Below are positions 38,900-44,942 of a DNA stretch of 64,000 bases, in pieces. This DNA is from Gemmatimonadota bacterium (lineage in GTDB: Bacteria > Gemmatimonadota > Gemmatimonadetes > Gemmatimonadales > GWC2-71-9). The position numbers and the translations under genes were made by a program. Under the pieces are notes generated by a model, which was not told where the DNA came from, did no database searches, and saw only the letters and a list, made by a program, of their open reading frames with translations. The stretch lies in assembly GCA_009692185.1 (NCBI GenBank), contig SHZT01000011.1:1-64000 (forward strand), given 5' to 3'. The stretch's first letter is position 1, and each line of letters begins with the position of its first letter.

Positions 38900-39322
38900 C
38901 TAGACTTTCTCCATCAAGAAATCGATGTTGATCGTGCCCTTCGTCTTGTTGGGGACCTTCCCGCTGATCGGCCGGACCTGCTTCCACCCGGGCATGACGA
39001 TGTCGATGCGGATCGCCGAAGGATCGACGTCCACCCCCATCTCCTTGTGATACGCACCGATGTCCGGGCTGCGGTAGTGGCCGGGCTTGTCGGGCATGAA
39101 GGGGAAGTGCATCTCGAGGTTGTCCACAAAAACGCGGAGAATTGCTGTCTCCGTGATGAGCTTCCCGTTGGTGTCCTTGATGAAGCCGAAGTACACCAAG
39201 TCTACCTTGCCCGAGCCGGCCGGCTGGAAGAACTCCCCGCCATTCGCCAGCGTAAACCCGGAAGTCGCCAGTGCGAACGCGACGCACGCCAGCAAGGCGG
39301 CACGTCTCGAATTCCTGATCAT
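38900..39322 (-). CDS. secreted protein of unknown function
   Basis: A 140-aa protein from ATG 39322, which has a strong ribosome site (AGGAGG). A signal peptide (about 1-27, ALLACVAFALATSGFTLANG) leads into a mature domain of about 113 residues with a central FVDNLEMHFPFMPDKPGHY segment rich in aromatic and acidic residues. There is no recognisable domain and no cysteine after the signal peptide. It ends a minus-strand series with two membrane proteins, a flavin oxidase and two cupredoxins, and is probably periplasmic with a role in that system. Confidence 0.72.
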   Translation of the reverse strand: MIRNSRRAALLACVAFALATSGFTLANGGEFFQPAGSGKVDLVYFGFIKDTNGKLITETAILRVFVDNLEMHFPFMPDKPGHYRSPDIGAYHKEMGVDVDPSAIRIDIVMPGWKQVRPISGKVPNKTKGTINIDFLMEKV

Positions 39323-39339
39323 TGGTTTCCTCCTCGGTT

Positions 39340-39654
39340 TCACAAGAACCAGTGCCTCTGAGATACAAGTATAACGACAAGTGTGATGGCCGGGAGCAGC
39401 CACGTGTATCCGTGCCAGAGGCGGTCCGCCAACCGTCGGGGAACGATCAGCGCCAGCACGGCGCTCGACACAAGGGCGGCGGCGACCCATCCGTACCACA
39501 GGATGGGAGGGCCCGCTTCCGGCCCCTCGATGGGGGCCAGGGAGAACTTGTTGAGCATCGGGTAGTAGCGGAACGGCGACCAGAGCGAGATGAAGAACGC
39601 CGTATAGAACGCGCCGAACGCGATCGAGAAGATCTTGAATGAACTGTATTTCAA
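39340..39654 (-). CDS. small membrane protein of unknown function
   Basis: A 104-aa protein with three predicted helices (about 8-26, 52-70 and 82-99). A short polar loop containing FSLAPIEGPEAGPPILW sits between helices 1 and 2. No metal-binding or catalytic motif is clear; only His80 and His101 are histidines, so heme ligation is not obvious. It directly abuts the next membrane protein gene upstream (zero gap), which suggests a two-subunit membrane complex. Confidence 0.7.
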   Translation of the reverse strand: MKYSSFKIFSIAFGAFYTAFFISLWSPFRYYPMLNKFSLAPIEGPEAGPPILWYGWVAAALVSSAVLALIVPRRLADRLWHGYTWLLPAITLVVILVSQRHWFL

Positions 39655-40119
39655 TCAGAGTCCCCGGATGTTGTTCAGCACGTGGCCGACCAGGAAGCCC
39701 CACCAGACGAGAAATGCCAATATCCACGTGAGATACTTCCGGGTGCCGGCATGTTCCGGCGCCAACGGCGCCCTCCAGTACAACCAATACGACGGCAGCA
39801 GCCCCAACCCTACAGCAATGAGGTGTTCCTTGATCTCGAAAACCCCATTCGCGGCGGGCAATTGGAGGTCTTCCAGAGTCGTCCGAACCTCGATCCGATA
39901 CTGGGGGTACAGCAGCGCACCCATGATGGCCGTCGCCACGAACAACATGACGATCGGCTGGGCATAGGAAGCCGCGGGCACGCTGCCGAACCGGCTGACA
40001 AAAGACCTGGGCCCCGCTCCGGCGCGGGGCCTTCTTGCCACGCTGAACGCCTGGTGCGTGATGGCCCCCAACAGGGTCACGGCCAGCAGCCCGTGAACAA
40101 TCAGCATGACGACTAGCAT
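39655..40119 (-). CDS. four-helix membrane protein with conserved-looking histidines
   Basis: A 154-aa protein with four predicted helices: LVVMLIVHGLLAVTLLGAIT, YAQPIVMLFVATAIMGALLY, EHLIAVGLGLLPSYWLY and LTWILAFLVWWGFLVGHVL. Histidines lie in or at the edge of helices 1 (HGLL, THQ), 3 (KEH) and 4 (GHVL). That arrangement would permit b-heme binding as in small cytochrome b-like proteins, but this is speculation from residue positions. The gene starts 1 nt after the flavin oxidase stop and runs into the three-helix partner without a gap. Confidence 0.7.
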   Translation of the reverse strand: MLVVMLIVHGLLAVTLLGAITHQAFSVARRPRAGAGPRSFVSRFGSVPAASYAQPIVMLFVATAIMGALLYPQYRIEVRTTLEDLQLPAANGVFEIKEHLIAVGLGLLPSYWLYWRAPLAPEHAGTRKYLTWILAFLVWWGFLVGHVLNNIRGL

Positions 40120-40120
40120 G

Positions 40121-41551
40121 TCAGGCCATTACCTCGCCAGCGGCGCGTTCCCCGGATTGCAGAGCTCCTTCCATCCAACCCATCCAGGACGATGTGTGTT
40201 CCCCGGCAAAATGCACTCGGTCTTCCGGGGTGGCAATGTGAGGCATGATAGACGATCCCTGACCGGGGTACCAGACTGCAAATGCGCCCCTGGACCAGGG
40301 CTCCAGCCCCCAGCGATGGGCCACCCCCTGCTCAAAATTCCCGCCGATTTCCGGGAATGCGTCCGCCACCAGACCCTTTCCGAACGCGACACTCTCTTCC
40401 GGAGTCATCTCGAGAACGGCACGACCGACCGCGCCACCGGCCGTGACTCCCAGTATCCCCCGGGGTCCTGGCAGGTCGTGGGTGCAATCCCAGATCTCCG
40501 CCGGCCGGTCGGTCCGCGCGTACGCACTCAATCCGGACGCGCGCCAGAACCGTGTTCGAGACTGGATGAGAAATCGGGTCGCCGGGAAATATGGGAGGTT
40601 CTCGATCGCCCGCTCCTTCTGGCCGGAGAACGGCGGCCGGATTTCGATCTGCCGAAGGGTGGAAAACGGAATGGCAAGGATGACTCGGCTCGCCACGATG
40701 CTCTCCGACCGTGTGTTCTGAACGTAATCAACCTTGATTGCGTCCGGAAGCTGGTGTATCCGGACCACGGCCGCATGGTATCGAACAATGTCGCCGAGTG
40801 CGGCGGCCATGGCGCGCGGCAGCAGGTCCATGCCCCCACTGATCTTGAAATCGAGCTCACCGGCGCCCCTGATGAGGGCGATCTGCCGCAGCACGTACAA
40901 CGCGGAAAGCTCCTTCGAGTCCCCACCGACCGTCATGAGCGTGATCGCACCGGCAGACGCGCCGCGGGATCGAAGCCATTCGGGCCAGGTCACGCGATCG
41001 AAGGCCTGCCAGTCGGCGTACGACCCGGGCGGGGCGGGGTCCGCCAGGTCGGGCGGCAGATCGCGAAGGTAGCGCTCGAGCAGTTCCCTCGGGCTCAGGC
41101 CGCGCTCCTCGGGCTTCAAGTCGAGCCGCAACCGTGCCGGCTCGAGGGGCTGGTCAGACCGGGCGGTGACGCCGTGGATGGTGACCAGCGACGACCCGGC
41201 GGGAGGGGAGAACGGTACGAGCTTGAGCCCGAACTCCCTGACCAGCCGGAGAACGGTGCGATGCCTTGCCTTTATCCGGATAGGTCCGGCCTCGGCGTAG
41301 AGACCATCGTCGAACGGCAGCCGAACCGTTTGAACCCGTCCTCCTGGAATCGGCCGCGCCTCGAGGACGACGACCTCTCGCCCCGCCTTTCGGAGCAGGT
41401 CGGCCGCATGCAGACCCGCGAGCCCTGCACCCACAACGACGATGGTTTCCGCGGCGCCGGTCGTCCCCCTGGGGAGATGATCCCGATAGGCGGGCACCAC
41501 GGCGGACACTCCCGCCATGGCGGAGAATCGGACAAATGTCCGGCGGTCCAC
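40121..41551 (-). CDS. Tat-exported flavin amine oxidase
   Basis: A 476-aa FAD protein of the monoamine oxidase/L-amino-acid oxidase family. Residues 3-4 are RR in DRRTFVRFS followed by a hydrophobic stretch, a Tat-type leader, so the folded flavoprotein is probably exported. The FAD loop VVVGAGLAGLHAADLLRKAG and VLEARPIPGGR give the Rossmann and GG motifs, and the C-terminal VHFAGEHTSSWMGWMEGALQ closes the flavin site. The substrate is likely an amine or amino acid. It lies directly upstream of two membrane genes and downstream of two cupredoxins on the minus strand, which may be its electron acceptors in place of oxygen. Confidence 0.87.
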   Translation of the reverse strand: MDRRTFVRFSAMAGVSAVVPAYRDHLPRGTTGAAETIVVVGAGLAGLHAADLLRKAGREVVVLEARPIPGGRVQTVRLPFDDGLYAEAGPIRIKARHRTVLRLVREFGLKLVPFSPPAGSSLVTIHGVTARSDQPLEPARLRLDLKPEERGLSPRELLERYLRDLPPDLADPAPPGSYADWQAFDRVTWPEWLRSRGASAGAITLMTVGGDSKELSALYVLRQIALIRGAGELDFKISGGMDLLPRAMAAALGDIVRYHAAVVRIHQLPDAIKVDYVQNTRSESIVASRVILAIPFSTLRQIEIRPPFSGQKERAIENLPYFPATRFLIQSRTRFWRASGLSAYARTDRPAEIWDCTHDLPGPRGILGVTAGGAVGRAVLEMTPEESVAFGKGLVADAFPEIGGNFEQGVAHRWGLEPWSRGAFAVWYPGQGSSIMPHIATPEDRVHFAGEHTSSWMGWMEGALQSGERAAGEVMA

Positions 41552-41614
41552 TTCTAGGTCACCCCGGTGCAGTCATTGGCCGCCTTCATTCCCGATCGGG
41601 CAAACATCGTCGCG

Positions 41615-42145
41615 CTACGTCGGGGTCGTGACGCCGGCCTCCTGGCCTGCCGCGACGTCGAAGTTGACCCACATGCCGGCGATGGCATGACTGGGGATGA
41701 GGCATATCAGGATGTATTTGCCGCGCTTGGACGCCGTAAACCTGAGCGTCTCCGACTCCCCCTGGTCGGTCGCCTGATCGTTGGGGTTGGACGACATGGC
41801 GCCGGGAAACACGGGCGTCGCGTCCGGAAGCGTGGGCATTTCGCCGGTCGGACGAGCCACGAGGCCAACACTGTGCTTCATGTAGTCGTCGTTCGTGAAC
41901 TCGATGGTAATCGCGTAACCCTCGGGCACCGTGATCGTCATGTTCCCATGGTCGTGATCGTTGAAGGCCCACGCGGTGTGACTCGGGTTCTGGGAGGCCA
42001 CGACCTTCATGCTCACCGTGCGGGCCTTGTGGTCTACGCTGAACCAGTCCGGTTCCTTTCTGCCGCCTGCCGGTGCACCCGGATTGGCGGGGGAAAGGGT
42101 CGCGCACAATGTGAACAGCAGCGGGGCGGTGCCAAATATTCCCAT
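41615..42145 (-). CDS. sulfocyanin-like blue copper protein, complete site
   Basis: A 176-aa exported cupredoxin from ATG 42145, with AGGAGA upstream. A signal peptide (about 1-19) is followed by a single cupredoxin domain (HDHGNMTITVPEGYAITIEF). All type 1 copper ligands are present: His91 (MKHSVGL), Cys148, His153 and Met158 (CLIPSHAIAGM), spaced C-x4-H-x4-M as in sulfocyanin and rusticyanin. A periplasmic electron carrier of high potential is expected. It is a close paralogue of the gene at 42193-42717. Confidence 0.88.
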   Translation of the reverse strand: MGIFGTAPLLFTLCATLSPANPGAPAGGRKEPDWFSVDHKARTVSMKVVASQNPSHTAWAFNDHDHGNMTITVPEGYAITIEFTNDDYMKHSVGLVARPTGEMPTLPDATPVFPGAMSSNPNDQATDQGESETLRFTASKRGKYILICLIPSHAIAGMWVNFDVAAGQEAGVTTPT

Positions 42146-42154
42146 GGGTTCTCC

Positions 42155-42184
42155 TGTATTGAGCGAGGCGGTGTATTGAGCGAG
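42155..42184. repeat. short tandem duplication between the two cupredoxin genes
   Basis: TGTATTGAGCGAG occurs at 42155-42167 and again at 42172-42184, and each copy is followed by GCGGT (the second after an extra CA). The gap is only 47 nt, so this may be a scar of the duplication that produced the cupredoxin pair, or simply a slippage product. Confidence 0.55.
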
Positions 42185-42192
42185 CAGGCGGT

Positions 42193-42717
42193 CTAGCGGT
42201 CGTCCCGCACGCCTGCCTCCCGGCCGGGGGCGACGTTGAAGTTGATCCACATGCCCCCTGTCGCGAAACTCGGGACCAGGCACATCAGCACGTAGCGGCC
42301 CTTCCTGGACGCAACGAAAGTGATGGTCTCCGACGCCCCCTCCCTGGTGGCGCCGGTGCTGGATGTCGCATTCGACGAGACCGCGCCCGGAAACGCCGGG
42401 ATCGAGTCCGGGGTGGCTGACGGTTCGATAACCCAATGCTCCAGGACCCCGATGCTGTGCGCCAGGTTGTCCAGGTTGAAGAAGTTGATCGTAATCCCGT
42501 AGCCCTCGGGTACCGTGATCGTCCCGTTTCCGTTCATGAATCCGTTGAGGTTCCAGGAGATGTGGGACGCGTCCTGCTCGGCCGCAATTGTCATGGTGAC
42601 CGTGCGGGCGCTGTGGTCCACGCGGAACCACCCGGGCGCCGCGTTGGTCGAGCGCTGGGCGCTGGCCGCGGCGCTCACAGTGAGGAGGATCGCCACTGCA
42701 CCCAGGGTTTGTCTCAT
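42193..42717 (-). CDS. sulfocyanin-like cupredoxin lacking one copper ligand
   Basis: A 174-aa exported cupredoxin from ATG 42717 (AGGAGA upstream), clearly paralogous to the gene at 41615. It keeps His87 (LAHSIGV), Cys146 and Met156, but the second histidine is replaced by Phe151 (CLVPSFATGGM). A type 1 site with His-Cys-Met only would be much altered, or empty. The rest of the fold, including GNGTITVPEGYGITINFF, is well kept, which argues against a decaying gene. It may bind a partner, store copper, or carry a low-coordinate site. A longer start (42741) is possible but lacks a ribosome site. Confidence 0.84.
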   Translation of the reverse strand: MRQTLGAVAILLTVSAAASAQRSTNAAPGWFRVDHSARTVTMTIAAEQDASHISWNLNGFMNGNGTITVPEGYGITINFFNLDNLAHSIGVLEHWVIEPSATPDSIPAFPGAVSSNATSSTGATREGASETITFVASRKGRYVLMCLVPSFATGGMWINFNVAPGREAGVRDDR

Positions 42718-42737
42718 GGGTCTCCTGGCACTGCAGG

Positions 42738-44942
42738 TCAAAACGACAACCAGGTTCCGACGAGCGGCCGCTGCTCGATGCCCGGCCGGGACCAGTCACA
42801 GACGCCGTCCGGGAAGATCTTCCGGAGCCGCGCCTGCTCCTCGGGGGTGAACGCTACCGAGTAGTCGGACGGCGGGATCGGCTTGAGCTGGCATTTGATG
42901 ATGTCGCTGGCCAGCGGCCCGCCGGCAACCAGCCGGGGGTCACGAAAGACCGGGTACAGCGCGTGACACTGCCCTCCGGTGTGGCTCTGCGTTTCGACGA
43001 TCTTCTTCGGGATCGAGTCTGGAGTCCAGCAGGCATCCACCAGGTCCGCCGGCTTGGCCCGCGCCACCCTGGTTGCCCTGGGATCGCCGGACGTGTCCCG
43101 TGACAGGTTGTCCAGCCACCGATCCATCTGCGCGAGCGCCTCGCGCAGGACAGGGCTGTTAGTACTGAACAGGCCGTAGCGGTTGTCCTGCACGAGCATC
43201 ACGTGCCCGGCGTGGTTGCCGTTGACTTTGTCGAGACGTGCCCGGGTCATGAAGGACTGGATTCGCTTGTGTGCATCGCCACCGTCCGGATTCGTTCTCG
43301 GGTTCTCATTGAGGTCGGCGTACGCCCGGTAGTCGATGATCGGGGTGCCGGCGAGTCCGCCCCCTCCGCTCAGGAGTCGTCCTGTCTCGTACGCAGCCCG
43401 CATGGCCTGCGGGTCGGCAATCGAGCGCTGGGGAACGTAGTTGAAGTCGAGGTCGTACCCGCCAATCCGGTCGTTCAGGTCCAGGAACTGGGCCTTGGTG
43501 ATGCCTCCAGAGTTCAGAATACCCAGCCCATACTGGACGCCGACATTGTCGAGCGCCCGGCGCGCGAATCCGGTTTTCGGATCTCGCCCGTAGACGTTGA
43601 CGGTGTGGTCATAGATCTCGCAGCGGGCCCCCCGAGGGTTGGTGACGGGGTGGTACCTGAGCGGCACGGGAAGGTCGGCGTGACACGAGGACGCGCCGTC
43701 GGGGTCGAGCCGGTCGGCCCGCCCCACGTCACGGGCCAGGTCTCCGTGCTTGCCGTACCCGGCCACCTGGCGTTGCTGCTCGATGGTGAAGACCCCGGGT
43801 GCCGTCTTCGTGAAGTAGTTGAGGAGCAGTCCTCCGTCTGCGATGTCGAGGCCCTGGCCCCCGAACCCCACATCCGGGAAGCTGCAGCCGGGAATGATCC
43901 CGTCGAACAGGCCGGGATAGTTGTCCCCGATCTGGTGGACTTGAAACGAGCCGCCCGAACAGCCCATGCCGATGGTGTACCGCATGATGCCGTATCGCTC
44001 GATGAAGCGTTCCTTGACCATCATGACGGTCTCGGCCGCGAGCACGTCGTTGGCGTTCTGCCCGAAGACGTTCAGTGACGAGGACGCAATGGCATAGCCT
44101 TGCGAAAGGACGGAGGTGTCGAGGATGACCCCGGTGGTCTGGCCCTGGATGTACCAGCCCGGTTGCACTCCGCCACCGAAGGTGTAAACCAGCCGCCCAT
44201 TCCAGGCGGGGGCGGGCACCGACGGGCTGGGCATCGGGAGGGCAGGGTCGTGGAGAATGGCCGTCTGGTAGATGCCGCGATTGACCGTTCCCGTTTCGAT
44301 CAGGACGATGTATGGGACTGTCTTGCCCTCGCTGGTGGTCGTGCTCGCCACATCGGTCGGACGCGGCACGCCGGCGGGCAGGGGCTTGAACGTCCCGTCG
44401 AGCGCCTTGTACCGATGCTCGACTCGTGTCTCGACGGAGCAGTCTCGATCGAGTGGCTTGCCGAGTCCTCCCGGCACGCCCCTGAAGGTCTCCGTCATGC
44501 AGATGAAGGGCTGTTCGTGGAGGCCCGAAAAGATCGGGCCGGTGATTGGGTAATTCACCATGGTCAGCGACCCGGACACACCCGTCCGGTCGTTCATCCG
44601 AGCCACCAGTGTGTTGCTGCCCACCCGGAGACCAGTCACCAGACCGGTGAGCGAGCGGGCCGATTCGTTGGCGTGAAATGCGCGGGTGACATCGGTCCCG
44701 TTCAGCTCCACGGCCAGCTGGTTGGCGAGCCCGGCCACCGGGAGGTCAATGCGGACGAGCACGTCTCCTCCGCTCACCATGTCGGCCCGGGCCGACAGCG
44801 TGCTGATCTTGAACTCTTCCGCCGGGGGAGGTCGCTGCTGCGACAGGGCCGGCTTCACGGCTGGCAGGGCGGTGAGTACCAGCAACGCGACTGCCTGGAA
44901 CGAAACGCGCCGCGCCCCGCGAGAAGAACCGGTGTCGTTCAT
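42738..44942 (-). CDS. DUF6351-like secreted alpha/beta hydrolase
   Basis: A 734-aa exported protein with a signal peptide (about 1-34). An Ig-like N-terminal domain (about 40-135: FKISTLSARADMVSGGDVLV) is followed by a long hydrolase-like domain with GMGCSGGSFQVHQI, in which Ser329 is the probable nucleophile of a GxSxG-type elbow. The length and this motif match the DUF6351 family as I recall it, whose substrates are unknown. A carboxylic ester such as a phenolic or polyester bond is a reasonable guess. It starts at ATG 44942, 45 nt after the CoA-transferase operon, and precedes the cupredoxins by 20 nt. Confidence 0.75.
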   Translation of the reverse strand: MNDTGSSRGARRVSFQAVALLVLTALPAVKPALSQQRPPPAEEFKISTLSARADMVSGGDVLVRIDLPVAGLANQLAVELNGTDVTRAFHANESARSLTGLVTGLRVGSNTLVARMNDRTGVSGSLTMVNYPITGPIFSGLHEQPFICMTETFRGVPGGLGKPLDRDCSVETRVEHRYKALDGTFKPLPAGVPRPTDVASTTTSEGKTVPYIVLIETGTVNRGIYQTAILHDPALPMPSPSVPAPAWNGRLVYTFGGGVQPGWYIQGQTTGVILDTSVLSQGYAIASSSLNVFGQNANDVLAAETVMMVKERFIERYGIMRYTIGMGCSGGSFQVHQIGDNYPGLFDGIIPGCSFPDVGFGGQGLDIADGGLLLNYFTKTAPGVFTIEQQRQVAGYGKHGDLARDVGRADRLDPDGASSCHADLPVPLRYHPVTNPRGARCEIYDHTVNVYGRDPKTGFARRALDNVGVQYGLGILNSGGITKAQFLDLNDRIGGYDLDFNYVPQRSIADPQAMRAAYETGRLLSGGGGLAGTPIIDYRAYADLNENPRTNPDGGDAHKRIQSFMTRARLDKVNGNHAGHVMLVQDNRYGLFSTNSPVLREALAQMDRWLDNLSRDTSGDPRATRVARAKPADLVDACWTPDSIPKKIVETQSHTGGQCHALYPVFRDPRLVAGGPLASDIIKCQLKPIPPSDYSVAFTPEEQARLRKIFPDGVCDWSRPGIEQRPLVGTWLSF

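Follow-up and report, generated by a model that had tools for sequence, protein, structure and literature searches.

Two adjoining cupredoxin genes on the minus strand of a Gemmatimonadota contig raise the question of what becomes of a sulfocyanin-like protein when one of its copper ligands is replaced by a residue that cannot bind copper. The genes, here called A and B, lie within the window, the whole stretch of 64,000 nucleotides that was analysed. A first-pass annotation had described them as tandem sulfocyanin-like paralogues, and this description is borne out: they adjoin, their products share 48% identity across 171 aligned positions, and both score above the cut-off of the SoxE/sulfocyanin family PF06525. 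The annotation had also placed B and its Phe151 correctly, and the His-to-Phe difference that it noted at the second copper histidine is there, as His153 in A and Phe151 (TTC) in B. The features of the pair are as follows.

42193-42717, minus strand: gene B, sulfocyanin-like cupredoxin of 174 amino acids with Phe for the second copper His
42265-42267, minus strand: Phe151 codon TTC, the slot of the second copper His in B
42457-42459, minus strand: His87 codon of B, first copper His, retained
42280-42282, minus strand: Cys146 codon TGC of B, copper Cys, retained
42250-42252, minus strand: Met156 codon ATG of B, axial Met, retained
42722-42726, minus strand: AGGAG, ribosome-binding-like stretch of B, with a similar one 5' of A
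41615-42145, minus strand: gene A, tandem sister paralogue of 176 amino acids with the full His-Cys-His-Met set
41687-41689, minus strand: His153 codon (CAT) of A, counterpart of Phe151 in B

The ligand loop of B reads Cys146-LVPS-Phe151-ATGG-Met156 (sequence CLVPSFATGGMW), and that of A reads Cys148-LIPS-His153-AIAG-Met158, with His91 as the first copper histidine (sequence CLIPSHAIAGMW). The N-terminus of B looks like a signal peptide by eye, CAGGAGA stands immediately 5' of the ATG in both genes, and the codon-position GC periodicity of B is strong (0.55/0.54/0.87). In the 2.63-Mb genome, which is assembled in 30 contigs, A and B are the only SoxE matches; there are two COX2 matches.

B belongs to PF06525 over residues 33-162 (48.6 bits, against 59.5 for A and a cut-off of 21). 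Both proteins stay below the cut-off of the sulfocyanin equivalog TIGR03094 (48 bits for B and 57.1 for A, cut-off 168.4), and B stays below that of the rusticyanin family TIGR03095 (19.6 bits, cut-off 146.7). Sulfocyanin is the best family match over the whole length of B; the ligand columns are occupied by His, Cys and Met and the loop, C-x4-[slot]-x4-M-W, is shared, but the second histidine is Phe in B. The type-1 ligand set comprises His, Cys, His and an axial Met or Gln, and the order His, Cys, His, Met with a C-x4-H-x4-M loop is given for sulfocyanin Q53765 and rusticyanin in the accessible part of PMC517927, with the rusticyanin order likewise in that of PMC10654088. B departs from this type-1 (blue) copper set: His87, Cys146 and Met156 are present, and Phe151 stands for the second His.

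A structure model of B (residues 23-174, built from 73 sequences) has a pLDDT of 91.9 and a pTM of 0.87, and it matches many cupredoxins and copper oxidases, among them reduced rusticyanin (1a3z; Z 12.8, rmsd 2.4, 119 aligned). By this model B has the cupredoxin fold, a Greek-key beta sandwich. The model speaks for the fold and not for the copper site, because such models are insensitive to single residues.

To place the Phe among relatives, B was used to search 102 genomes of its family, 288 of its order and 395 of its phylum, its own genome counted. Nearly all places found were taken as loci, the exceptions including the short fragments G063:C239 and G059:C358; 171 loci plus the window gave 176 matching reading frames, which collapsed to 152 rows. 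His occupies the slot in 140 of these rows, Asn in six, Thr in one, Phe in one (B itself) and Met in one (the frameshifted L117), with three gaps, so that His fills 140 of the 148 readable in-frame rows. The first-His column (His87) holds H in 151 rows with one gap, the copper-Cys column (Cys146) C in 147 and S in two with three gaps, and the axial-Met column (Met156) M in 139, E in nine and C in one with three gaps.

No orthologue of B turned up among the 102 genomes of the family, the 288 of the order or the 395 of the phylum, and the single other genome of B's genus has no match whatever. Close homologues do carry His in the slot, yet they are the paralogue A or distant homologues. In a collection of named genomes, a single-protein scan with B gave no match; an alignment scan gave ten loci, in Gemmatimonadales bacterium UBA2988 (L039), eight others titled as Gemmatimonadota and Candidatus Kutchimonas, and all ten have His in the slot. 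Plasmids yielded three weak homologues of B at 29-30% identity. A DNA-level search of the 395 genomes for C-x2-P-x-F-x3-G-M-W, a pattern that requires Pro two before the Phe and Gly-Met-Trp after it and that looser variants would escape, found three matches: B, L079 and L080. L079 was rejected as a frame of 43 residues, and L080 as a frame lying opposite longer reading frames, one of them GAPDH-like by eye. Among the sequences examined, Phe in the slot is unique to B.

The same alignment contains other irregular sites. In L117 (G154), L048 and L140 (G243) the cupredoxin frame is shifted or split, which marks assembly faults or broken genes; the L048 cupredoxin is split over two frames, with the loop in the second. 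Nine rows (L009, L013, L037, L150, L154, L158, L159, L169 and L170; genera g4, g14 and g45, B's own family) have Glu at the axial-Met place and keep both His and Cys, in a loop C-G-V-P-x-H-A-x-x-G-E-W/Y. To our knowledge, an axial Glu in a C-x4-H-x4 loop is not among the usual type-1 ligands.

How B arose can be read from a tree built on 98 rows over 138 columns, from which the slot column was omitted. A and B are sisters with an SH-aLRT of 98, a value to be read with the caveat that the method was quick, the columns few and the B branch among those flagged as long. Their end branches measure 0.47 (A) and 0.49 (B), and L050 and L039 lie nearest to the pair. Relative-rate counts against four outgroups (A versus B: 16 and 11, 15 and 12, 13 and 9, 14 and 9) give no excess of change in B with any of them. 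The sister relationship and the absence of a rate excess mark B as a lineage-specific duplicate of long standing whose evolution has not accelerated. A crude estimate of A-B divergence gives a dN of 0.40 and a dS of 0.81, the latter probably underestimated at the GC of this genome.

We then asked how much of B is constrained, using the 25 columns that the other 85 subfamily rows share at a level of 95% or more. All 25 are intact in B and two are broken in A, whereas neutral simulation to 36% amino-acid divergence breaks about nine. Both columns broken in A fall in a loop that reads FNGYxNG in relatives and FNDHDHGN in A, with His64 and His66 as additional histidines. The absence of stop codons is itself weak evidence against decay, because no stop arises in 28-55% of the neutral runs that reach 36% divergence. 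Equal branches and unbroken columns, set against about nine broken under neutrality, argue against decay, and on these comparisons B is a retained protein. The earlier statement that the fold is otherwise kept agrees with both the model confidence and the unbroken columns. Its companion claim, that the change looks selected rather than decaying, holds as far as decay is concerned; the comparisons do not extend to selection on the Phe itself.

In type-1 copper proteins, the histidine of the C-x4-H-x4-M loop is a surface-exposed ligand and the usual electron path. We hypothesize that B has given up type-1 electron transfer and persists as a redox-silent paralogue that carries either no copper or Cu(I) alone and binds a partner, and we give this reading a probability of roughly 55%. 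The ancestor would have been a normal sulfocyanin-like electron carrier that was duplicated in tandem within B's lineage. Copy A would have retained the complete type-1 copper site and copy B would have lost it, since Phe, being unable to bind copper, would leave B with His87, Cys146 and Met156. With the slot histidine, one of three strong ligands and the exposed electron route would both be gone, and the loss of electron transfer is what the ligand residues of B would predict. The intact A would leave B free to abandon electron transfer while retaining a binding role. B would then be a folded, secreted, redox-silent protein, either copper-free or with Cu(I) held by His, Cys and Met as its three ligands. 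Retention of Cys146 and Met156 leaves room for the Cu(I)-only form, and retention of all three other ligands argues against a copper-free B, which would not need them.

A second case of slot-His loss is found in genus g77, of B's class but a different family. Here six rows carry Asn in the slot and one carries Thr (L083, L085, L086, L093, L096, L102 and L115), with His retained in L073, and in L093 and L115 the Cys has become Ser too. These proteins resemble B in belonging to the same subfamily, in lacking the same His and in showing signs of purifying selection. They differ from B in having Asn or Thr instead of Phe, one match per genome and a distant position in the tree, and on this evidence the loss in g77 is independent of that in B. 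The seven His-less rows may form a single clade (p-AU 0.43), although the tree does not recover one.

The median dN/dS over all eight g77 rows is 0.25 (28 pairs), compared to 0.18 for eleven His-keeping rows of genus g81, and the two Cys-less rows give 0.21 with each other. By these ratios, the g77 proteins without the slot His are under purifying selection, even those that lack the Cys, a parallel that favours the redox-silent reading of B. The Ser codons of the two Cys-less rows are AGT and TCG, so the loss of Cys was probably two events. Cys is lost in two of the eight His-less rows and in none of the 140 His rows (one-sided Fisher 0.003, with kinship ignored). B differs from the two Cys-less rows in still having its Cys, which again counts against a copper-free B.

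An alternative to the redox-silent reading is that B has a working site of altered coordination, with copper held by His87, Cys146, Met156 and a water, small ligand or partner side chain, and that this site is of high potential or carries Cu(I). We consider this unlikely, although it is the better of the alternatives. The three other ligands are kept in B, as is the Ser that follows His87, and rusticyanin, which shares the ligand order and the fold of B (2cal; Z 12.4, rmsd 3.2, 121 aligned), is known as a stable protein with an engineered change of the equivalent histidine. According to the accessible part of its record, PDB 2cal is the crystallised His143Met protein, which implies that a protein altered at the slot ligand can still be stable and may go on binding copper. 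That protein is a laboratory mutant to a copper-capable Met, however, whereas B is natural and its Phe cannot bind copper. Bulky and greasy, Phe would tend to close the site rather than open it, and the g77 rows, in which loss of His is followed in two by loss of Cys, also weigh against an altered site. Retention of the three other ligands does not by itself decide between a copper-free and an altered-copper B.

Somewhat less probable still is a recent or near-neutral change, in which B is redundant with the intact A and the Phe is an unselected loss in one species or strain that has so far left the remainder undamaged. Such a change would fit a gene that is found in a single genome among the family, order and phylum sets, and homologues in which the filled slot is mostly His. 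The slot codon is CAT in A and CAC or CAT in 90 of the 98 tree rows, however, and to reach TTC requires at least two base changes, so that Phe151 is more than one-letter noise. The remainder of B has also been conserved as well as A over a long branch, an observation that speaks for constraint on the gene but says nothing about the age of the Phe. A sequence or assembly fault at the Phe151 codon is very improbable: the evidence does come from a single assembly in 30 contigs, but the fault would have to make two changes in one codon without shifting a reading frame that is clean elsewhere. Copper storage, which the first-pass annotation had also offered, is rejected, as nothing in the sequence supports it.

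For a redox-silent B, the gene neighbourhood is where a partner might be sought. The neighbours in the window are as follows.

42738-44942, minus strand: tannase-like DUF6351 protein, upstream neighbour, ending 20 bases before B
40121-41551, minus strand: flavin amine oxidoreductase (PF01593), downstream neighbour, with a start that looks twin-arginine-like by eye
39340-40119, minus strand: two small hydrophobic proteins of 154 and 104 amino acids, of no known family

Together with B, A and a secreted-looking protein of about 140 amino acids, these form a same-strand run (38900-44942), the last three proteins of which belong to no known family. The gaps within it are at most 63 bases, and the run may be one transcript; promoter and terminator scans gave nothing above shuffled sequences. 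When fifteen window genes were compared with the homologous loci over 3 kb, none except A and B had a match. The 154-residue neighbour has no match in other genomes among the 102 of the family and only two, marginal and partial, among the 395 of the phylum, neither a clear relative. The run is not conserved, so no conserved operon backs a partner for B, and this counts against the partner role. Our guess is that B works through a partner to which it binds, which might be A or another product of this gene run. Around the g77 genes, four stretches (one with His, three with Asn) have an aligned frame of about 745 residues at 80-87% identity that adjoins the cupredoxin by coordinates and whose end is thioredoxin-like by eye. 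In these stretches the neighbour does not differ between g77 genes with and without the slot His, because this frame lies beside both kinds.

Cupredoxin-fold proteins kept without copper have precedents by analogy. SufI/FtsP is a secreted bacterial protein of copper-oxidase (cupredoxin) fold that lacks bound copper and has been proposed to act as a scaffold, although it has three domains and keeps two of 12 copper residues, whereas B has one domain and keeps three of four (accessible part of PMC2661564). The plant ENODL proteins, as described in the accessible part of PMC10048054, are a branch of the cupredoxin family without the residues needed for copper; unlike B, they are plant phytocyanins of an unrelated branch, mostly glycoproteins. 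The open-licence literature yielded nothing on cupredoxin paralogues with a substituted histidine ligand, on quinol-oxidase cupredoxin domains that have lost ligands, or on His143Met rusticyanin, and nothing on azurin H117G beyond a reference-list mention.

Cupredoxins are usually taken as electron carriers from a domain match alone. Annotation would name both A and B sulfocyanin-like, though B is without the ligand that usually passes the electron. We tentatively suggest, at somewhat less than even odds, that the sulfocyanin-like proteins of the Gemmatimonadota form a natural series of stepwise dismantling of the type-1 site, at least two independent times: through Phe in B, and in g77 through Asn or Thr followed by Cys to Ser, with the protein still selected for a role without electron transfer. 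The genome itself supplies A as a matched control, and a single genus offers relatives with His, Asn, Thr or Asn plus Ser. With A and the g77 series, both the succession of steps by which a metal site disappears and the later role of the protein are directly testable.
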